Of a DNA stretch of 26,689 nt, positions 4,536-15,118 are shown in pieces. The stretch is from the IMG/VR virus record IMGVR_UViG_3300047553_000029, positions 1-26,689 of that record. One strand, 5' to 3'. The stretch comes from a virus. A model generated the notes under the pieces. It was not told where the DNA came from. It did no database searches and worked only from the letters and a program-made list of their open reading frames with translations. Numbering within the stretch: the stretch's first letter is position 1; every line of letters begins with the position of its first letter. The translations under genes were made by a program, and so were the position numbers.

Positions 4536-4730
4536 ATGCCAGTAGTTAAATGCAGCAACGGGAAATGGAGAATAGGTAACGGCTCATGCGTTTACGATAC
4601 CAAAGAAAAAGCGGTAGAAGTTTGGCAGGCTATATTAGCAACGGGTAAATACAAAACAGATGATAACACAAAAAGTAAAAATCAGCGAGGTAAAAGCAAA
4701 TCCGAACAATCCGAGGCTGATAAAAGATGA
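4536..4730 (+). CDS. small conserved phage protein (KCSNGKWRIGNG type)
   Basis: Encodes 64 residues. The first 40 (MPVVKCSNGKWRIGNGSCVY, then DTKEKAVEVWQAILATG) form a compact domain whose pattern, a K-C-S-N-G-K-x-R-I-G beta hairpin followed by a helix with K-A-x-x-x-x-x-A-I-L, recurs in many phages without known function. The last 24 residues are a hydrophilic Lys/Ser/Glu tail that overlaps the next gene by 71 bases in another frame, so the tail is probably shaped by the overprinted gene rather than by selection on this protein. The core may bind nucleic acid; that is speculation. Confidence 0.6.
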   Translation: MPVVKCSNGKWRIGNGSCVYDTKEKAVEVWQAILATGKYKTDDNTKSKNQRGKSKSEQSEADKR

Positions 4731-5844
4731 CAAGTTTAAAAAGCTGGTAAAGTCTATACAGGAATTTCCAGAGATGTTAAGCCTACGCCCTATTGTGGTT
4801 AACGCTGACATGATAGTGCTGGGTGGTAACATGAGGTTGAAAGCTTGCAAAGAAGCAGGATTGAAAGAAGTAGATATAATAAAAGCCGATGACCTAACAG
4901 AAGAACAACAGAAGCAGTTTATTATTAAAGATAACGTTGGCTTTGGTGAGTGGGACTGGGAAGACCTTGCAAATAATTGGGATGCTGAACAGTTGACAGA
5001 TTGGGGTTTAGATATACCGGATTTTAAAACGGAAGTGCTTGAAGCAGAGGAGGATGATTATGAAATACCCGAACATTTAAAGACTGATATTGTACTTGGA
5101 GATATATTTGAAATTGGACAGCACAGGTTAATCTGTGGGGATAGTACACAAACAGATACTTTTGCAAAACTATTTGAAAATCAATTAGCAGATTTAGTTG
5201 TAACAGACCCACCATATAATGTGGCATACGAAGGTAAAACAAAGGATGCTTTGACTATTGCAAACGATAGTATGTCCGATGATTCTTTCTACCAGTTCCT
5301 TTACGATTTCTATACAGCATTAGGCAGTTACACCAAAGCAGGTGGGGCTTGGTATGTTTGGCACGCAGATTCAGAAGGAGCAAACTTTAGGTCTGCAATG
5401 AAGAATGCAGGTATAATGGTAAAGCAGTGTCTGATTTGGGTTAAAAACTCAATGGTAATGGGAAGACAAGATTATCAATGGAGGCACGAACCTTGCCTAT
5501 ATGGTTGGAAAGAGGGTGCTGCTCACGGGTGGTATTCGGATAGAAAGCAGACAACTATATTAGAATTTGACAGACCAAGCAGGAACGCAGAACATCCAAC
5601 AATGAAACCAATTCCTTTGATTGCTTATCAAATTGGGAATAGTAGTAAACAGGGGGATATCGTAGCGGATGCTTTTGGAGGTTCAGGAACTACAATGGTG
5701 GCAGCACATCAATTAAACAGGAGGGGGTATCTTGTAGAGTTTGACCCAAAATATTGTCAGGTAATAGTGGACAGGATGATAAAACTTGACCCGAGTTTGG
5801 AGGTCAAAAGGAACGGGGTAAAATATATCAAAACAGGCAAATAA
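4660..5844 (+). CDS. ParB-like domain fused to DNA amino-methyltransferase
   Basis: Encodes 394 residues. Residues 1-90 form a ParB/Srx-like domain (KISEVKANPNNPRLIKDDKF, later VLGGNMRLKA). From residue 124 a DNA methyltransferase follows, with motif IV TDPPYN (162-167) before the conserved HPTMKP (302-307) and motif I DAFGGSGTT (327-335). Motif IV before motif I is the permuted beta-class order typical of N6-adenine or N4-cytosine enzymes. Known relatives in phages and mobile elements methylate short sites, often as a defence against host restriction. No restriction endonuclease is adjacent, so it is an orphan. The ATG at 4660 is required to keep the whole ParB domain and lies inside the preceding 64-residue gene. 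The next gene starts seven bases after its stop. Confidence 0.85.
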   Translation: MITQKVKISEVKANPNNPRLIKDDKFKKLVKSIQEFPEMLSLRPIVVNADMIVLGGNMRLKACKEAGLKEVDIIKADDLTEEQQKQFIIKDNVGFGEWDWEDLANNWDAEQLTDWGLDIPDFKTEVLEAEEDDYEIPEHLKTDIVLGDIFEIGQHRLICGDSTQTDTFAKLFENQLADLVVTDPPYNVAYEGKTKDALTIANDSMSDDSFYQFLYDFYTALGSYTKAGGAWYVWHADSEGANFRSAMKNAGIMVKQCLIWVKNSMVMGRQDYQWRHEPCLYGWKEGAAHGWYSDRKQTTILEFDRPSRNAEHPTMKPIPLIAYQIGNSSKQGDIVADAFGGSGTTMVAAHQLNRRGYLVEFDPKYCQVIVDRMIKLDPSLEVKRNGVKYIKTGK

Positions 5845-5850
5845 CAGGCT

Positions 5851-6216
5851 ATGCCAATAAAGAACCAACATCTTAATCAATTTAAGCAGGGTGAAAGCGG
5901 AAACCCAAACGGAAGACCGAGGAAGTATGTTAGCCTTCTGAAGGATGCAGGGTATAAATTATCCGAGATAAATGATACTATTCAGACGATGATGGCAATG
6001 GATATACAGGAACTCAAAGGGGTTTATGAAAACCCACAGGCTACCATATTGGAAAAGACAATAGCAAGTGCGATGCGGAAAAGTTTAGAGAAGGGTAGCT
6101 TGTACTCATTGGAAACGCTTTTAACAAGGGTTTACGGCAAGCCAAAGGAAACGGCAGAGGTAACTAATGACGGAAAGATTGAAGTGGTATTTGTAAATGG
6201 GAAGACTATTCTATGA
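5851..6216 (+). CDS. terminase small subunit-like protein (DUF5681-type)
   Basis: Encodes 121 residues. The N-terminus carries FKQGESGNPNGRPRK (12-26), the signature of DUF5681-type proteins found directly upstream of large terminases. The rest is helical (MDIQELKGVYENP, TILEKTIASAMRKSLEKGS) and ends in a short beta segment. The likely role is DNA recognition during packaging, as the small terminase subunit. It overlaps the large subunit gene by four bases, which is the usual terS-terL arrangement. Confidence 0.7.
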   Translation: MPIKNQHLNQFKQGESGNPNGRPRKYVSLLKDAGYKLSEINDTIQTMMAMDIQELKGVYENPQATILEKTIASAMRKSLEKGSLYSLETLLTRVYGKPKETAEVTNDGKIEVVFVNGKTIL

Positions 6217-7391
6217 GGATTGAACTGCCTGAACCACATATCAACCAGCTTCCTATCCTGCAATCACCTGCAAGGTTCAGGGTTGTAATGTGCGGCAGAA
6301 GGTTCGGCAAATCAGAACTATCACAAATCGAAATAATAACCGAATCACTCAAAGGTCATCAGGTCGCATACATTACGCCAACGTATAATCTTGCAAAGAC
6401 TTTTTTCGATAAGTTAGCAAAGGCTGTACCTTTCCCGGCAAACAGGTCAGAATTAACGATAAGCCTACCAACAAAGGGGAGTATCCAATTCTTTACAGGT
6501 GAGCGGCTTGATAATCTACGGGGTAGGAAATTCCACCTTGTTGTAGTGGATGAGGCTTCTTTTATTCCTAACCTTGAGGATGGGTGGTTAAATGCTATCC
6601 GACCAACACTTACCGACTATATCGGTAGAGCATTGTTTTTGTCAACCCCAAAAGGTAGGAACTATTTTTATTCCCTTTTTATGAAAGGAAGTGATGTAAC
6701 AGATTTCAGAAACAGTAGCCCTAACGATTGGGAATCTTTTAAATTTACAACTTATGACAACCCACACATAAATAAAACCGAGATTGATGACGCACGTACT
6801 CAATTACCTGAAGCGGTGTTTGAGCAGGAATACATGGCTAACCCAATGGAAAATGCGGCTAACCCTTTCGGTAGTGCTTTTATTCAGCAATGTACTTATC
6901 CAATGAGTACGGAAGCCCCTGCGGTTTATGGTATTGACCTTGCCAAATCTACGGACTGGACAGTTATTATCGGGATGGACAGAATGGGGGCAGTTTGTTA
7001 CTTTGACAGATTCCAAAACGATTGGCGAACTACAAAGCAGAAGATAAAACTACTACCAAAAGCACCCATACTGATAGATTCGACAGGGGTAGGAGACCCG
7101 ATAACAGAAGAACTTCAGCACGATGGGCTGGAAGTAACAGGCTTCAAGTTCAGCCAAACAAGCAAGCAACAACTTATGGAAGGGCTGCAAGCGGCTATAC
7201 ATCAGCGCAAAATAACCTTCCCGGCTGGCATAATAACGCAGGAATTGGAAATTTTCGAGTACCAATATCATGCAGGAGGTGTTAGGTATTCTGCACCATC
7301 AGGCTTTCATGATGATGTTGTTATGGCATTAGCTTTAGCAAATCAGCACGTTAACCAATATAGAAACAAAGGAAAATATTCTTTCGCATGA
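6213..7391 (+). CDS. terL: terminase large subunit
   Basis: Encodes 392 residues with both terminase domains. ATPase: Walker A CGRRFGKS (27-34), Walker B LVVVDEAS (109-116) with catalytic E114, and coupling motif STPKG (144-148). RNase H-like nuclease: D242 in YGIDLAKSTDW, D289 in ILIDSTGVGDP, and D367/D368 in FHDDVVMALALA, together giving the expected metal-binding acidic triad. It is the packaging motor and genome-cutting enzyme, docking on the portal. It is compact compared with the usual 420-600 residues. It overlaps both neighbours by four bases. Confidence 0.93.
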   Translation: MRIELPEPHINQLPILQSPARFRVVMCGRRFGKSELSQIEIITESLKGHQVAYITPTYNLAKTFFDKLAKAVPFPANRSELTISLPTKGSIQFFTGERLDNLRGRKFHLVVVDEASFIPNLEDGWLNAIRPTLTDYIGRALFLSTPKGRNYFYSLFMKGSDVTDFRNSSPNDWESFKFTTYDNPHINKTEIDDARTQLPEAVFEQEYMANPMENAANPFGSAFIQQCTYPMSTEAPAVYGIDLAKSTDWTVIIGMDRMGAVCYFDRFQNDWRTTKQKIKLLPKAPILIDSTGVGDPITEELQHDGLEVTGFKFSQTSKQQLMEGLQAAIHQRKITFPAGIITQELEIFEYQYHAGGVRYSAPSGFHDDVVMALALANQHVNQYRNKGKYSFA

Positions 7392-7996
7392 AATGGAGTG
7401 ACGTAACAGTAGGACAATACCAACAACTTGCCGAAATCGGTAAAATGGGGTTAAGCGATTTAGAAGCAACACAGGAAACGATTGCTATGCTATTTGGGTT
7501 AACCATTAATCAAGTCCGGCAACTAAAGCCGTTGAAGATGGCAAAGTATGTTGAAGAATTAGGTTTTCTAAAAACCGAAATAATCCCGAGGCGCAGAACT
7601 ATTCTGTATTGCAAAGGCTATTTCTACGGGGTTGACTATAGCTTTGTTGATTTTGTTACCAGCAAATACATTGAAACAAAATATTTTATGCAGGACTTTG
7701 TGGCTAACATCCACAACCTGCTGGCGGTTTATACGCATCAGCTGAAGTACGGCATCATAAAAAAAAGACCGAGAATATCGGAATTTGAAAAAGATGCGGA
7801 AAGATTGAAGGCTGCAAATATTGAAGAAGCAATGGGGGTGCTGGTTTTTTTTTATCCAACATTCGACAACTTGATGAAAACTACGCAACATTATTTGGAA
7901 CTGAACAACAAGACGGGGAGGATGAACAAACTGATAGAGAAGGCAATCACCCTTTCCTTGAACAATACGGCTGGATATACCAAGCACACCTTGTGA
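7388..7996 (+). CDS. tail assembly chaperone, zero-frame product (gpG-like)
   Basis: Encodes 202 residues. The start MKWSDVTVGQYQQLAEI, followed by a short helical region (ATQETIAMLFGLTINQV), is typical of small tail chaperones of Bacteroidota phages. Residue 155 falls at the end of a T9 run (7845-7853), where a -1 slip gives a longer product; the unshifted reading continues for 47 residues to TGA 7994-7996. The short and long forms would correspond to gpG and gpGT of lambda-like phages, coating the tape measure and recruiting tail tube subunits. It overlaps terL by four bases, an unusual position since such genes normally sit just before the tape measure gene. Confidence 0.65.
   Translation: MKWSDVTVGQYQQLAEIGKMGLSDLEATQETIAMLFGLTINQVRQLKPLKMAKYVEELGFLKTEIIPRRRTILYCKGYFYGVDYSFVDFVTSKYIETKYFMQDFVANIHNLLAVYTHQLKYGIIKKRPRISEFEKDAERLKAANIEEAMGVLVFFYPTFDNLMKTTQHYLELNNKTGRMNKLIEKAITLSLNNTAGYTKHTL
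7845..7853 (+). promoter_or_regulatory. probable -1 frameshift slippery site (T9)
   Basis: Nine Ts read in frame as GTT TTT TTT TAT. This contains the heptamer T TTT TTT in the right register for a -1 slip (X XXY YYZ). The -1 frame is open from 7825 to 8136, so the run lies inside the only window in which a slip gives the extension. No clear downstream stem or pseudoknot was seen by eye. RNA polymerase slippage on the U9 run is an alternative mechanism. Confidence 0.6.
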
Positions 7997-8136
7997 GCGA
8001 ATTTGAACGGGTTTCTCTGGATGATGTCTATAAAATGACAGCTGTACACTTCCTAAATGATTTGGCGTACCTAAAGGCTAAAAACGCCCATGATGACTAT
8101 TTAAATAAAAAGGCTCGTGGCAAAACAATCGCTTAA
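7852..8136 (+). CDS. -1 frame extension of the tail assembly chaperone (gpT-like part)
   Basis: A stretch of 94 codons without a start of its own, joined to residue 155 of the upstream gene by a -1 slip to give a fusion of 249 residues. It begins LSNIRQLDENYATLFG, passes an acidic linker (EQQDGEDEQTDREG), then has a well-formed domain: FLEQYGWIYQAHLVSEFER, then VYKMTAVHFLNDLAYLKAK. The W-x-Y followed by a helix with N-x-x-A/L-Y-L-K is the pattern of C-terminal domains of chaperones and minor tail proteins in these phages. It fills what would otherwise be a 120-base gap and ends 20 bases inside the next gene. A one-base assembly error in the T run would make it simply the true C-terminus. Confidence 0.65.
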   Translation, partial: LSNIRQLDENYATLFGTEQQDGEDEQTDREGNHPFLEQYGWIYQAHLVSEFERVSLDDVYKMTAVHFLNDLAYLKAKNAHDDYLNKKARGKTIA

Positions 8137-8824
8137 ATCTTTGCAGGCTGATGCGCTTAATGAAGGCTTCCTGAATGACCTCGGCAATGACAAAACAAAC
8201 TACGCAGATAAAAGACAAGCACCAGTTACTGAAAAGCTACTTATTGAGGTGGTAGGCAACTTCCTGCTTCAGGTGCAGGAAAACATAATTAAAGCTAATA
8301 AAGTTGATACTGGAAGGCTTTCTGAAGAATTAAGGCAAGGAGACCTTTTGAACAGCAAAGGCGTTTACTCCATAGAAGCAGGCTACCCACTAAACAGCGA
8401 AGCTGCCAATTATGCACCTTTTGTCAATCAGGGCGTAAAAGGATTTACATCCGGTGAGCCTTCTGATAGTCCTTTTAGCTTTAAATCAGCCCGACCAAAG
8501 TATGACGGGGTAATGGTGGATGCCATGTTGCAATGGGTAAAGCGTAACGGCATAAGCAGCAGGAGTGAGGACCAGCGCAGTAATTTGAGCAGGCTACAAT
8601 CAAAGCGGCAATCTGTCGGCAATGTTGATGTACAAAGACAAACAGCATACCAAATAGCTACAGCAATAAAGAAACGAGGTCTGCCGAAAACAGACTTCTT
8701 TACTTCAGCAGTTAGGCAATATTTCGGTGATGAATTTGTAGCAGCAGTTGGTTCGGCTTTCTTATCGGATGTTCGGGTGTACATAAAACAAGCGAATGCG
8801 CTAATTAATAGTGAGAATAAGTAA
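8117..8824 (+). CDS. HK97 gp10-like head-tail/minor tail protein
   Basis: Encodes 235 residues from a GTG at 8117, overlapping the frameshift extension by 20 bases. The segment NIIKANKVDTGRLSEEL (about 57-73) and later NYAPFVNQGVKG (98-109) are the hallmarks of the HK97 gp10-like family, which helps complete the tail or head-tail joint. The C-terminal part (RQTAYQIATAIKKRGLPKTD, then FFTSAVRQYF) matches the family's terminal helices. At 235 residues it is longer than many gp10-like proteins (about 120-150). The role is inferred from family and location. Confidence 0.65.
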   Translation: MAKQSLKSLQADALNEGFLNDLGNDKTNYADKRQAPVTEKLLIEVVGNFLLQVQENIIKANKVDTGRLSEELRQGDLLNSKGVYSIEAGYPLNSEAANYAPFVNQGVKGFTSGEPSDSPFSFKSARPKYDGVMVDAMLQWVKRNGISSRSEDQRSNLSRLQSKRQSVGNVDVQRQTAYQIATAIKKRGLPKTDFFTSAVRQYFGDEFVAAVGSAFLSDVRVYIKQANALINSENK

Positions 8825-10008: not shown

Positions 10009-12050
10009 GAACGGAAATATACATAGAAGACCAGCGGCTGGATTTAACGCAGGATATTAGTGCAGAACTAACCTACTCAATAGACGATATTCAGGACTTC
10101 GGTACCCGGAACACATCATTTAGTAAAACGATTGTACTTCCCGGCAATGCGAACAATAACAAAATATTTGGACACGTTTTTGATTTTAACAGGTCAACGC
10201 CTTATGACCCAACAGACCAAAATTACGGCTATAATTTTAATCCTGCTGCGACTGCCCGGTGTGTTATCCTTATAGATAAGATTCAGGTATTTAAAGGCGT
10301 TTTAAGGCTTTTGGAAATTGTGATAGATAACGGGATAATAGAGTACGAATGCGCTGTATTTGGTGAATTAGGAGGATTTGTTTCTGCATTAGGCAATAAT
10401 AGATTAGAGAACCTTGATTTTTCAGCATATAACATAGCGTGGAATTATACCAACATACAAAACAGCTGGAATAATGTTACTGGTGGCGGTATTTACTTTC
10501 CACTAATAGATTACGGGGGTATGTCAGGCAACAAGGTAGATTTTGATTTTAAAGCCTTCCGACCTGCTTTTTATGTTAGGGAGATATTAAGCAAGATAAT
10601 AACAGCTTCAGGCTATACATGGGACTTCCCATTGTTATCTACGGCTTTGTTTGATAGGCTTGTAATACCTAACAATCAGCTGCGAATTAACAGCTTGACT
10701 ACACAGGTTTTTGATGCTGATTTTACCATTGGAACGTACAGCAACCCTACATATATTCCAATGACTGTTATTACGGCTGGTTCGTTTACTGGAACCAATC
10801 CAATAACATACACAGCAACAGAGCCGCTAAACCTTAACATAACCTGCCGACCTATTGGGCAAGTTAACACATTGACAAGCACACCGGGAACAGTTACATT
10901 TAGACTAAAGAAAAACGGAGCAGTATTGCGTGAAGAAAGCCGATTTGTGCCGTCATCAAATTTTTACGTAAATTTTAATCTTGATGTTACGGGTGTAAAC
11001 GTGGTTCAGTCTGATATTATTTCTGTTGAGGTTAGCAGCAACATTGTTTCTTACCAGTCCTTCGGTGGTCAGTTTACGCTTGACAGTTCTGTTCCTGTTG
11101 AAGTGCCTATTGCATACAATGATGTAATAAGCATAAACGATTGCCTACCAAAAGGAATATTCCAGCGGGACTTCTTTTCTTCTATTGTTAAGATGTTTAA
11201 TCTTTATGTTGTAGAAGATAAGTTTGTAGATAAAAAACTGGTCATTAAGCCTTTTGTTGATTTTTACAGCTACACAGCTTCAGCCCAATATGACTGGACT
11301 AATAAAATGGACAGGTCAAAGCCTATGCGATTAAAACCGATGTCGGAATTAAATGCAAGGTATTACCAGTTTGCTTACAAGCCTGATACTGATTATTATG
11401 GGGAGAATTACCGGAAAAAGTATAATCAGGGCTACGGGGATTTTATAGAAGATACGGCAAGCGAATTTGTAAAGGAAACAGAAAAGATAGAGGTAATTTT
11501 TGCAGCTTCACCATTATACCAATATTTGGGAACTGATAAAATCTATCCTGCAATCTATAAGCTATCAAATACAAAGCAAAGTGAAGACCCGATGGATTCG
11601 GTTATTAGGATAATGCAGGCGCAAAAGATAACTAACCGGGTTAGCTGGGCAATGAAGAACGGAGGTACTACGCTTGCAACGTATAATGATTACGGATATG
11701 CAGGGCATCTGTTTTTTAATACTGCATCATTTACGCAAACGAATCTAAACCCGACATCTGATATTAATTTCGGAGCACCTGCTGAAATTTATTTCCGGGT
11801 ACAGCAATACACATCTGTAAACCTATTTAATAGCTACTGGAGCGAATACATTGCAGAGATAACCGACAAGGACAGCAAGTTATTAACGGCTCAAATTAAG
11901 TTAAATGACACGGACATTTACAATCTTGATTTTGGGAAGTTGCTATATATAGACGGGAGCCTGTGGCGATTAAATCGGATTATGGATTATAACCCGATAG
12001 CTATGCAACCGACAAAGTGCGAATTTTTAAAAGTAATTGAATTAATATAA
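10005..12050 (+). CDS. large tail-tip/baseplate protein
   Basis: Encodes 681 residues. The N-terminal domain (1-110) contains YSIDDIQDFGTRNTSFSKTI, then LPGNANNNKIFGHVFDF, a block I associate with baseplate-hub-like proteins of Bacteroidota siphoviruses. A long beta-rich middle follows, and the C-terminus has FGKLLYIDGSLWRLNRIMDY followed by TKCEFLKV, a strand-rich end typical of hub or Tal-type proteins. No peptidase or lysozyme motif was spotted. Its stop overlaps the tape measure ATG by one base. It probably forms the tip that closes the tube and anchors fibres. Confidence 0.6.
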   Translation: MRTEIYIEDQRLDLTQDISAELTYSIDDIQDFGTRNTSFSKTIVLPGNANNNKIFGHVFDFNRSTPYDPTDQNYGYNFNPAATARCVILIDKIQVFKGVLRLLEIVIDNGIIEYECAVFGELGGFVSALGNNRLENLDFSAYNIAWNYTNIQNSWNNVTGGGIYFPLIDYGGMSGNKVDFDFKAFRPAFYVREILSKIITASGYTWDFPLLSTALFDRLVIPNNQLRINSLTTQVFDADFTIGTYSNPTYIPMTVITAGSFTGTNPITYTATEPLNLNITCRPIGQVNTLTSTPGTVTFRLKKNGAVLREESRFVPSSNFYVNFNLDVTGVNVVQSDIISVEVSSNIVSYQSFGGQFTLDSSVPVEVPIAYNDVISINDCLPKGIFQRDFFSSIVKMFNLYVVEDKFVDKKLVIKPFVDFYSYTASAQYDWTNKMDRSKPMRLKPMSELNARYYQFAYKPDTDYYGENYRKKYNQGYGDFIEDTASEFVKETEKIEVIFAASPLYQYLGTDKIYPAIYKLSNTKQSEDPMDSVIRIMQAQKITNRVSWAMKNGGTTLATYNDYGYAGHLFFNTASFTQTNLNPTSDINFGAPAEIYFRVQQYTSVNLFNSYWSEYIAEITDKDSKLLTAQIKLNDTDIYNLDFGKLLYIDGSLWRLNRIMDYNPIAMQPTKCEFLKVIELI

Positions 12051-14230
12051 TGGCGCAGCAAGAAGCGATAAATATAAAAGTAACGGTTGACAGCAAAGAT
12101 GCCCAGCAAGGGGTTGATAAGCTGCAACAAGGTGTAAAGCAAACAGGTGAAGCTGCCAAGAAAGCGGAAGCAGGAGCGAAGAAGGCTGGAGGTGCTTTTG
12201 CATCTATCGGCAACGCTTTAAAGTCTTTAGGTATTATTGGTTTGGTTGTTCGAGGCTTTGAGTTTCTACAGGAAATATTGATGAAGAACCAAAAAGTAGC
12301 GGATGCTTTTGCTATTGCTGGGGAGTTTATTAGCCGGGTGCTTTCTGATTTGGTAGAGTTCGTGGTGAATAATTTCGGGAAGGTTGTTGACCTATTTACG
12401 AAGGTCTTTAATGACCCGATGAAGTACGTTAAAGAATTAGGCGAGGCAATTAAAAACAACCTAATCGAAAGAGTTAAAAGCCTCATAGATGCCTATGGGT
12501 TTTTAGGTGAGATTATTAAGAACGTATTTACAGGAGAATTTGATAAAGCAGCAGAAGCCGCAAAGAATTTTGGTAAAGAGGTTGTTGATGTATTTACAGG
12601 CGTGGATGATGCTTTTGATAAAGGCGTGGAAGTTGTAAAGAATGCAACAGCTGCAATAGTTGATTATGGTAAAGAAACATTAGAGGCTGCAAAAAAAGGT
12701 GTAGCGTTAAGGAATAGCGCAAAACTGGCAGCGAGTGAAGCTGAAAGACAAGCTGCAATTTTTAAGCGGCAAGCAGAAGAACAAAGGCAAATAAGGGATA
12801 ACGAATTTGCAAGCATACAGGACAGGATAGAAGCCAATCAGAGGTTAGGTAAAATACTTGCCGACCAATTAAAATCTGAATTAAAAGCGGCAGAATTAGC
12901 GGTAGCATCTGCACAATACGAAAAGGATAAAAATAATAATCTTGACAATCAGATAGCTTTAAATCAGGCGTTAGCTGCTTTAGAAAGCAAACGTGAAGAA
13001 ATAACCGGGCAACGTTCAGAGCAGCTGGTTAATGAAGTTGCATTGCGGAAAGAATTATTAGACATCAATAAGCAGCAAACTGAATCTGATATTAAGCTGG
13101 ACATTGAAGCACGCAAAGCAGTCGCAAACAGGATAAAGGATGAAAAAGTAAAGCTGGAAACTTTACGGCAAATCGCTATTGATGAAGCGGCTATTGAATT
13201 GCAGCGATTACAAGATAATATAAAAACCCAGCAGGATGCTACAAAGCAGGTTTATGACCAGCAAGAAGAATTGGCAAAACAAGCATTGGCGAATAGAGAA
13301 ATAACCGAAAAGCAATTCAATGAAAAGCTGAAGGAAATAAATCAGCAGCGTGCAGATGCGGATAAAGAAACGAATGCAGCAAGGGTAGCGGCTGAAATTG
13401 AATACAAAGAGAAAAAGGCGGCTATTGCAGAAGAAATAATTGCAATAGATGAAAATATAGAAATGGAGAAATTCAAGCGTAATACTGAATCGCTTGAAAA
13501 GACAATTAACAATCAAAATTTAGAATTTGAGTTCAGAAGGCAAGCAATCGAATTAGAGCAGGAACAATTACAGGAAGCATTAAATAATAAATTAATTTCA
13601 GAGCAAGATTACACAAATAAATATCAGGAACTTGTAAATAGAAGAATGCAGATAGATGCTGAAGAAGTAGCGGCACAGCAGGCATTGCAAGACCAAAAAA
13701 ATGCTTTAGTACTTGCTGGTTTAGATATATTAAACGCAGCAGCAGGTCAAAATGAAAAGATAGCAAACGTAATATTTGCAATACAAAAGGCGATTGAAAT
13801 TGGAAGAATAATAACATCAACAGCTTCAGCGATTGCACAAGTTCAGGCAGGTGTTGCGGCTGTACCCGCAATATTGCCTCCGGGTGTACCGAACCCAGCT
13901 TTTGCGGCTGCCCTTGCTTTGGGTATAAAAAAGACAGTAGCGTTAAAGATTGGGGCTGCTGCACAATTAGCACAAATTGCAGCGGCTTCTATTTCCAAGT
14001 TCAAAAATGGTAATGCTCAAACTCCAAGCGGTACAGGTGGGCAAGGAGGTGGAATATCTACAGCTGCACCAATTCAGCCACAGCCAGCATTGCCAACAGT
14101 TACCCAGTTGGATAATCAAACTATTAACCGAATGGGGTCTGCAACAAATAGGGCGTATGTTTTAGAATCAGACATTAATAACAATCAGGAAAGGCTTATT
14201 AGAATAACAAGGGCTGCGAGGCTTGGATAA
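12050..14230 (+). CDS. tail tape measure protein
   Basis: Encodes 726 residues, dominated by Ala, Glu, Lys and Gln. An N-terminal coiled coil (AQQGVDKLQQGVKQTGEAAK) is followed by a hydrophobic segment at about 54-80. A long charged coiled coil then spans about 215-540, with heptads such as EAERQAAIFKRQAEEQRQIR. A second hydrophobic, Ala/Gly-rich region lies at about 583-647. The C-terminus reads RAYVLESDINNNQERLIRIT, a form common at the end of tape measures in these phages. Tape measures set tail length; at roughly 1.5 angstrom per residue this implies a tail of about 110 nm (an estimate). Minus-strand frames over this gene are artefacts of its biased composition. Confidence 0.88.
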   Translation: MAQQEAINIKVTVDSKDAQQGVDKLQQGVKQTGEAAKKAEAGAKKAGGAFASIGNALKSLGIIGLVVRGFEFLQEILMKNQKVADAFAIAGEFISRVLSDLVEFVVNNFGKVVDLFTKVFNDPMKYVKELGEAIKNNLIERVKSLIDAYGFLGEIIKNVFTGEFDKAAEAAKNFGKEVVDVFTGVDDAFDKGVEVVKNATAAIVDYGKETLEAAKKGVALRNSAKLAASEAERQAAIFKRQAEEQRQIRDNEFASIQDRIEANQRLGKILADQLKSELKAAELAVASAQYEKDKNNNLDNQIALNQALAALESKREEITGQRSEQLVNEVALRKELLDINKQQTESDIKLDIEARKAVANRIKDEKVKLETLRQIAIDEAAIELQRLQDNIKTQQDATKQVYDQQEELAKQALANREITEKQFNEKLKEINQQRADADKETNAARVAAEIEYKEKKAAIAEEIIAIDENIEMEKFKRNTESLEKTINNQNLEFEFRRQAIELEQEQLQEALNNKLISEQDYTNKYQELVNRRMQIDAEEVAAQQALQDQKNALVLAGLDILNAAAGQNEKIANVIFAIQKAIEIGRIITSTASAIAQVQAGVAAVPAILPPGVPNPAFAAALALGIKKTVALKIGAAAQLAQIAAASISKFKNGNAQTPSGTGGQGGGISTAAPIQPQPALPTVTQLDNQTINRMGSATNRAYVLESDINNNQERLIRITRAARLG

Positions 14231-14239
14231 ATTAAAAAC

Positions 14240-15118
14240 ATGGAAAAAGAATTACCTATTTACGAATTACAAATAGACGAGGCAATAGATGGCAGCGCAG
14301 AAGTTGACTTTGTTGCTTTGGTTGACCGACCTGCTGTGCAGCGTAACTTTTTAAAGTTTGCTGAAGATAGCTGGAACGATTACCCGGAAGCAGCGGTTAA
14401 CAATGCAAAGCGTGCATTAAAATGGGCAGAAGAGAACGGATGGGGTAGCTGTGGTGAGGCAACAGGCAAAGCAAGGGCTAACCAAATCGCAAATAAAGAA
14501 AATCTAACAAGGGAAACAATAGCCCGTATGGCATCCTTTAAAAGGCATCAGCAAAATAAAGATGTGCCTTATTCTGAAGGATGTGGCGGTTTAATGTGGG
14601 ATGCATGGGGAGGAGATGCAGGGATAGAATGGGCAATCAGAAAGCTGAAGCAAATTGATAAGCAACGTTTTAAAATTGAAGATGAAGAACAGCGGATTAT
14701 TTCAGGTGTTCTTATGTTAGCCGATACGCCAATTTATAGAAATGATGGCGTACAGGAGTACTACGTTGTTTTCAGTCCGCAAACTATTGCAGAGATTGCA
14801 CAAAAGTTTTTTCGCAAAGGTTATCAAAGCAATGTCAACCTGATGCACGACAGCGGGCAACAGCTTGAAGGTATTACTATGTTTGAAAGCTGGATAAAGG
14901 ACACTAAAAGAGGCGTTAGGGCAATGCAGGGCTTTGATGACGTACCTGATGGCAGCTGGTTTGGGTCTTACAAAGTTTATGATGATGCAACGTGGGATAA
15001 GATAAAAAGCGGTGAGGTTTTAGGCTTTAGCGTCGAAGGTGATTTTATTTACAAACAGAAAGTTAGCAAAGAAGAACAAATGATGCAGAAGATTATTGAA
15101 ATCTTAAGTTTGGTTTAG
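14240..15118 (+). CDS. XkdF-like prohead protease with inserted domain
   Basis: Encodes 292 residues. The N-terminus (YELQIDEAIDGSAEVDFVAL, VDRPAVQRNFLKFAE) and the C-terminal half (ISGVLMLADTPIYRND, NVNLMHDSGQQLEG, VLGFSVEGDF) match the XkdF/S78_2-type phage serine protease family; H203 and S264 are the likely catalytic pair. Between them, residues about 48-140 form an extra domain (YPEAAVNNAKRALKWAEENG, RMASFKRHQQNKDVPYSEG, CGGLMWDAWGGDAGIEWAI) that is known as a common insertion in phage proteases and portal-related proteins but has no assigned function. It should mature the capsid by cutting the scaffold and capsid precursors. A terminator follows the stop. Confidence 0.75.
   Translation: MEKELPIYELQIDEAIDGSAEVDFVALVDRPAVQRNFLKFAEDSWNDYPEAAVNNAKRALKWAEENGWGSCGEATGKARANQIANKENLTRETIARMASFKRHQQNKDVPYSEGCGGLMWDAWGGDAGIEWAIRKLKQIDKQRFKIEDEEQRIISGVLMLADTPIYRNDGVQEYYVVFSPQTIAEIAQKFFRKGYQSNVNLMHDSGQQLEGITMFESWIKDTKRGVRAMQGFDDVPDGSWFGSYKVYDDATWDKIKSGEVLGFSVEGDFIYKQKVSKEEQMMQKIIEILSLV

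Follow-up and report, generated by a model that had tools for sequence, protein, structure and literature searches.

A conserved run of nine Ts probably joins two reading frames in a probable tail assembly chaperone gene of Bacteroidota phages

Frameshifted tail assembly chaperones are well known among phages, and the initial annotation of the viral DNA considered here suspected another one. This DNA, a stretch of 26,689 nucleotides (positions 1 to 26,689 of the IMG/VR virus record IMGVR_UViG_3300047553_000029) that was analysed as a whole, is called the window in the following. Directly downstream of the gene for the large terminase subunit (terL), a gene starting at position 7388 passes through nine consecutive Ts (T9), and the -1 frame behind them encodes a further domain. 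The locus raises the question whether the two halves are made as one protein by a programmed net shift of -1, which function such a protein would have, and which machinery, RNA polymerase or the ribosome, slips on the run.

Two overlapping reading frames at a T9 run

The features of the locus and its neighbors are the following.

6213..7391, + strand: terL, directly upstream (phrog_2, E 2.9e-45; Pfam Terminase_6N/6C), overlapping the start of the putative chaperone gene by 4 nt
7388..7996, + strand: 0-frame open reading frame encoding the predicted short product of 202 aa, i.e., a 155-aa N half up to the slip and a 47-aa 0-frame tail; start, length, and synteny after terL are kept in homologues
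7845..7853, + strand: T9, the putative slip run, with an in-frame heptamer T TTT TTT at 7846-7852 inside; its phase is identical in relatives
7852..8136, + strand: -1-frame C half of 94 aa (LSNIRQ...GKTIA) with the conserved core F..YGWIYQA...LNDLAYLK, lacking a start of its own before the GW motif
7853..7996, + strand: dual-coding stretch in which the 0-frame tail overlaps the -1-frame C half, with purifying selection in both frames
8117..8824, + strand: next gene (235 aa, GTG start), overlapping the end of the -1 frame by 20 nt
12050..14230, + strand: tape measure protein of 726 aa (phrog_1538, tail length tape measure, E 4.7e-05; phrog_21537, virion structural protein, 2e-33)

The arrangement claimed at the outset is borne out by the letters. 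The sequence GTT TTT TTT TAT at 7844-7855 does contain a run of nine Ts, which constitutes the longest homopolymer in the window; the -1 frame, described as an open stretch from 7825, is open up to 8133 and closed by a TAA at 8134-8136; and joining both frames at the codon 7850-7852 gives the fusion of 249 aa that had been set against 202 residues unshifted. The fusion had also been said to remove a gap of 120 nt; this gap, between 7996 and the GTG at 8117, does disappear, as the -1 frame extends 20 nt into the next reading frame. AlphaFold models are mostly helical with a mean pLDDT of 78; they show the 0-frame tail as a single extended helix, predicted with low confidence. Three genes lie between the 7388 gene and the tape measure gene. 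The product of the first of these (8117-8824) looks by eye like an HK97-gp10-type head-tail or tail-completion protein; phrog and Pfam profile searches returned no family match for it.

Conservation of the run among relatives

Relatives were found by searching with each half separately, and profile searches with the C half then yielded three sets of loci. In each of the first seven relatives of the N half, 52-92% identical, the run is T9 with unchanged phase, and both frames are open. The resulting survey set of 242 records corresponds to 190 distinct homologous local sequences or 55 clusters at 85% nucleotide identity. T9 is present in 135 of the distinct sequences, while 50 are uninterrupted, one each carries T8, T7, and T10, and two are truncated and cannot be read at this place; counted by cluster, 35 have T9, 19 are uninterrupted, and one has T7. 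T9 is therefore found in 35 of the 36 clusters of the frame-shifted type, although the chance of such a run per sequence is 0.12 for the residues V-F-F/L under the genes' own codon usage. Elsewhere in the 220 kb around the sites, no run of nine or more Ts was found against about six expected, an absence which fits slippage by polymerase or by ribosome. The relatives with T8 (L206) and T7 (L102) both keep the frame arrangement and an intact heptamer, and in all 35 T9 clusters tested the -1 frame overlaps the following gene by 4-47 nt. Across the homologues, both the T run and the open -1 frame, whose conservation had been in question, are thus kept. The sole T10 member (L187) has its run 20 bases from the end of the contig, and might represent either an assembly error or a fresh in-frame fusion.

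Selection on the overlapping frames provides a second line of evidence. Substitutions in the overlap are spread over the three codon positions, unlike those in zones read in one frame: in 49 independent sister pairs, the codon-position counts amount to 316:161:331 in the overlap vs 111:72:287 in the downstream zone read in the -1 frame only (chi-square p = 1.7e-11). The 0-frame tail measures 45-85 codons in all representatives, and synonymous -1 recodings stay open for 45 codons in 23% of cases; this shuffle test of the 0 frame disregards relatedness, and the sister-pair comparison is the test relied on. Purifying selection on both frames in the overlap suggests that the unshifted 202-aa product is also used.

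Relatives with both halves in one frame

The 50 uninterrupted sequences (19 clusters, exemplified by L104, L016, and L067) carry both halves in one frame. In the nearer of their two clades, that of L067, the alignment passes through the junction without a gap (VVFFLSSI in the frame-shifted form vs VMNWITNI), which argues for a real fusion protein and for a net shift of exactly -1. Maximum-likelihood analysis places the uninterrupted forms in two clades, both inside the T9 forms, and the L067 clade falls within a clade of support 99/94. The simplest reading of this topology, which depends on the rooting, is that the shift is ancestral to both uninterrupted clades and was twice replaced by direct fusion. 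Since these two clades apparently manage with the fusion alone, the ratio of two products would not be essential in every relative. Part of an uninterrupted clade (L128-L145) shows CGT TTT TTT CTT, i.e., T TTT TTT in frame at the position of the former slip, where a -1 shift could yield a truncated product; this heptamer is not conserved within the clade.

Isolates and prophages carrying the site

A genome scan identified a prophage of Mucilaginibacter pedocola with T9 and both frames open, whose two halves are matched separately by the family profile. In the more distant prophage with T7 (L102), the run amounts to the heptamer T TTT TTT itself, in phase, and the -1 frame behind it is open; a viral scan with its N half gave no match. 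Relatives in isolated phages were recovered through fold search only: searches with both models led to gene P12024S_38 of Nonlabens phage P12024S, which lies immediately behind terL and has T9 in phase with an open -1 frame, and the same T9 is present in Nonlabens phage P12024L. By tblastn, the two halves of the window's protein found no match among 50,697 phage records. The family of P12024S_38, phrog_32199, matches the N half in 14 of 42 members (best E 3.9e-06) and aligns with L185 over 124 of 175 positions; the window protein itself receives no phrog_32199 score. P12024S_38 (Inhavirus) hence resembles the window gene in its homologous N half, its place after terL, its T9 in phase, and its W-containing C half in the -1 frame. 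It differs in that it is annotated as hypothetical, that its C half is called from an internal ATG only, and that the frameshift is unannotated.

The neighboring call P12024S_39 (L265, 23663-23830) is this internal-ATG fragment of the -1-frame C half, and P12024L_41 is similar by position. Flavobacterium phage 6H (L264, 10048-10927, - strand) gave a weak Foldseek match to a 191-aa gene ending in T TTT TTC, after which about 300 bases are unannotated; here, the -1 frame stops immediately and is later open over a W-containing stretch, and different recoding, a separate start, or a sequence error are all possible, so that this locus was left out of the evidence. No comparable site was found in Riemerella phage RAP44, Olleya phage Harreka_1, or Bacteroides phage BS-TP2, whose gene order after terL is different. 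The terL of OQ791282.1, recorded as 'Shigella phage Henu10', matches that of Riemerella phage PT15 (ON933637.1) in coordinates and identity, and its host label may be wrong.

A probable two-product gene

A net -1 change on T9 that fuses the two halves, as proposed in the initial annotation, is supported by homologues, independent isolates, and uninterrupted relatives. On this comparative evidence, the 7388 gene, which sits in a phage tail module, very probably encodes two products in a programmed manner. Two explanations would dispense with programmed slippage. A one-base assembly or sequencing error, mentioned at the outset as an alternative, would make the true gene a single frame with T10; homopolymers are error-prone, the T10 of L187 lies at a contig edge, and two clades do have both halves in frame. 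Nevertheless, T9 recurs in 135 distinct local sequences, drawn from many metagenomes, as well as in the genomes of isolates, and an error is thereby refuted at the level of the family; selection on the 0-frame tail, which T10 would not predict, also speaks against it. This explanation retains a negligible probability. Alternatively, the halves could be two separate genes, the C half being started on its own, perhaps with coupled translation, at a TTG in the run or at an internal start. Roughly one member in two does begin the -1 frame with TTG (66 of 136), and some ATG, GTG, or TTG precedes the GW motif in 120 of 135. The first -1 codon of the other 70 is TTA, however, so that a TTG start within the run is not conserved, and the uninterrupted relatives place both halves in one chain. 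Moreover, the window's lineage and the L221 group have no ATG, GTG, or TTG at all before the conserved GW motif, in agreement with the original claim that the -1 domain has no start of its own; an independent start of the C half is therefore rejected for the window's lineage and is very improbable overall.

Polymerase or ribosome

Either machinery could produce the fusion. RNA polymerase slippage alone, in which the enzyme would stutter on T9 and a fraction of the mRNA would carry U10, the fusion then being read in frame, is given an even chance. Ribosomal -1 frameshifting alone, i.e., a tandem slip of tRNA-Phe on U_UUU_UUU (7846-7852) at low efficiency as in lambda G/GT, is a serious possibility that falls somewhat short of that, and both kinds of slip could also contribute together. 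Nine Ts are the classical length from which transcriptional slippage has been predicted in bacteria (PMC1088944), where slippage runs usually comprise eight or more (PMC3711429), and the 135 distinct frame-shifted sequences with T9 display just such an A/T run of 8-9 or more under selection. All members, among them the relatives with T8 and T7, likewise hold an in-frame slippery heptamer of the type X_XXY_YYZ; in the T9 forms its presence is not a test, because T9 holds an in-frame heptamer in any phase. An exact T9 instead of T7 nearly everywhere is harder to reconcile with a ribosomal slip. The same is true for position 7852, at which a C would be silent in both frames, yet occurs in none of 36 clusters (p ~0.01 if the clusters are independent, 0.08 if only 20 are), although the all-pyrimidine codons UUU and UUC both rank with the more shift-prone ones in E. 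coli (PMC4066793). Furthermore, where the frame-shifted forms have V-F, the uninterrupted relatives mostly show T, S, K, or R, so that the protein itself seems not to need the Ts.

Ribosomal sites commonly have a stimulator, either a structure downstream or an SD-like element upstream, though some do without one. Folding of sliding 60-nt windows across 43 members revealed no strong conserved downstream RNA structure, the mean fold z-score never falling below -0.57, which counts somewhat against the ribosome. In E. coli, heptamers without a stimulator reach at most about 10 times a background near 0.05% (PMC4066793), and U_UUU_UUU is a weak site (PMC5009743). In favor of the ribosome, the known tail-chaperone frameshifts are described as ribosomal, with a ratio of 30:1 in lambda (PMC5009743) and frameshifting of 6-7% in tested genes (PMC3711429), and the chaperone gene of E. 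coli phage 9g uses the site CCCUUUUUUU (PMC4276943). In the literature searched, no phage tail chaperone was found whose production relies on slippage of the polymerase. The ribosomal precedent and the two relatives with T8 and T7, which keep the frame arrangement with an intact heptamer, point to the ribosome, whereas the run-length evidence leans slightly toward the polymerase. The complete reading, a tail chaperone whose two forms would be set by RNA polymerase slippage on an invariant T9 conserved in a large set of Bacteroidota phages, with two losses through in-frame fusion, is tentative and has a little less than an even chance.

A probable tail assembly chaperone

By analogy with lambda gpG/gpGT, standard reading would give the 202-aa protein, and a minority of decoding events would slip by net -1 on T9 to give the 249-aa fusion with the -1-frame C domain, both the slippage and its rate being predictions. 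In this model, the N half shared by both forms would cover the tape measure, and the C extension, confined to the rarer form, would bring in the subunit of the tail tube. Like G/GT, the gene is predicted to yield two products with a common N domain by changing frame toward the end of the first one, as the conserved T9, the two open and selected frames, and the uninterrupted homologues of the fusion indicate; it lies upstream of the tape measure, not immediately adjacent to it as is usual. Family matches are weak: Phage_TAC_7 is matched by 4 of 42 members (best E 4.5e-4), and a match to phrog_18582, tail assembly chaperone, reaches 0.003. The window protein itself matches no TAC family, and Foldseek, VIA-align, and a sequence search of the PDB returned no significant match to solved structures. 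Of the label 'tail assembly chaperone' in the initial annotation, the two-form architecture and the place in the tail module hold up, while the family matches are weak and confined to a few members. Judged from architecture, context, and these matches, a role as tail assembly chaperone is nonetheless probable.

A different two-product protein of the tail module or the head-tail region, e.g., a two-form structural or packaging-linked protein, would suit the place directly after terL, the weak family matches, and the absence of a similar solved fold. Yet chaperones are typically small proteins in two forms, one with a C extension, encoded upstream of the tape measure, and two independent TAC families appear among the weak matches. 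In addition, the extensions of the capsid and tube proteins known in two forms are Ig-like (PMC5009743), whereas the extension in this case is modelled as helical. A protein other than a chaperone is thus unlikely. The 7388 gene, part of a siphovirus-like tail module of Bacteroidota phages, would very probably yield two products in a programmed way and most likely encodes the tail assembly chaperone.

Comparison with known systems

Lambda G/GT and its siphovirus counterparts (HK97 and others) likewise consist of a small protein in two forms related by net -1, the longer one with a C domain, and their genes precede that of the tape measure within a tail module. In contrast to lambda, the slip site in the present family is a strictly conserved T9 and not a GGGAAAG-type heptamer, the gene directly follows terL and is separated from the tape measure by three genes, and the 0 frame continues for 45-85 dual-coding codons past the slip; no significant sequence relationship between lambda G/GT and the family was found. 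Shigella mxiE, the spa genes, and IS elements, in which slippage occurs on T9 or A9, also combine an A/T run with a selected open frame beyond it, and differ in being secretion, regulator, or transposase genes. E. coli phage 9g has its T-run slip site in a tail chaperone gene as well, described as a -2 shift with T7 in an unrelated phage.

What sets the family apart is that very distant phages keep T9 exactly, that the 0-frame tail is dual-coding, that the gene lies after terL, and that a direct fusion apparently replaced the shift twice. The family is without functional annotation, and no description of it was found in the open-access literature searched. The analysis uncovers a large family of predicted two-product genes that had gone unannotated in environmental Bacteroidota phages, and it corrects gene calls that split the halves or miss the second one. 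It also offers a natural test between recoding by the ribosome and recoding by transcription at one run, and the relatives that apparently gave up the shift bear on why tail chaperones come in two forms. P12024S, P12024L, and the M. pedocola prophage are isolates in which the slip mechanism is directly testable.

Genome context

The gene order of the window between 6213 and 19818 is unusual: terL is followed by the tail genes with the tape measure, and these in turn by the head genes, comprising an XkdF-type protease (14240), a scaffold-like gene, the major capsid protein (15846), and the portal (17818). The N-terminal part of the XkdF-like protease (14240-15118) matches phrog_2859. Upstream of terL, the region 4660-5844 encodes a ParB N-terminal domain fused to a DNA methylase.
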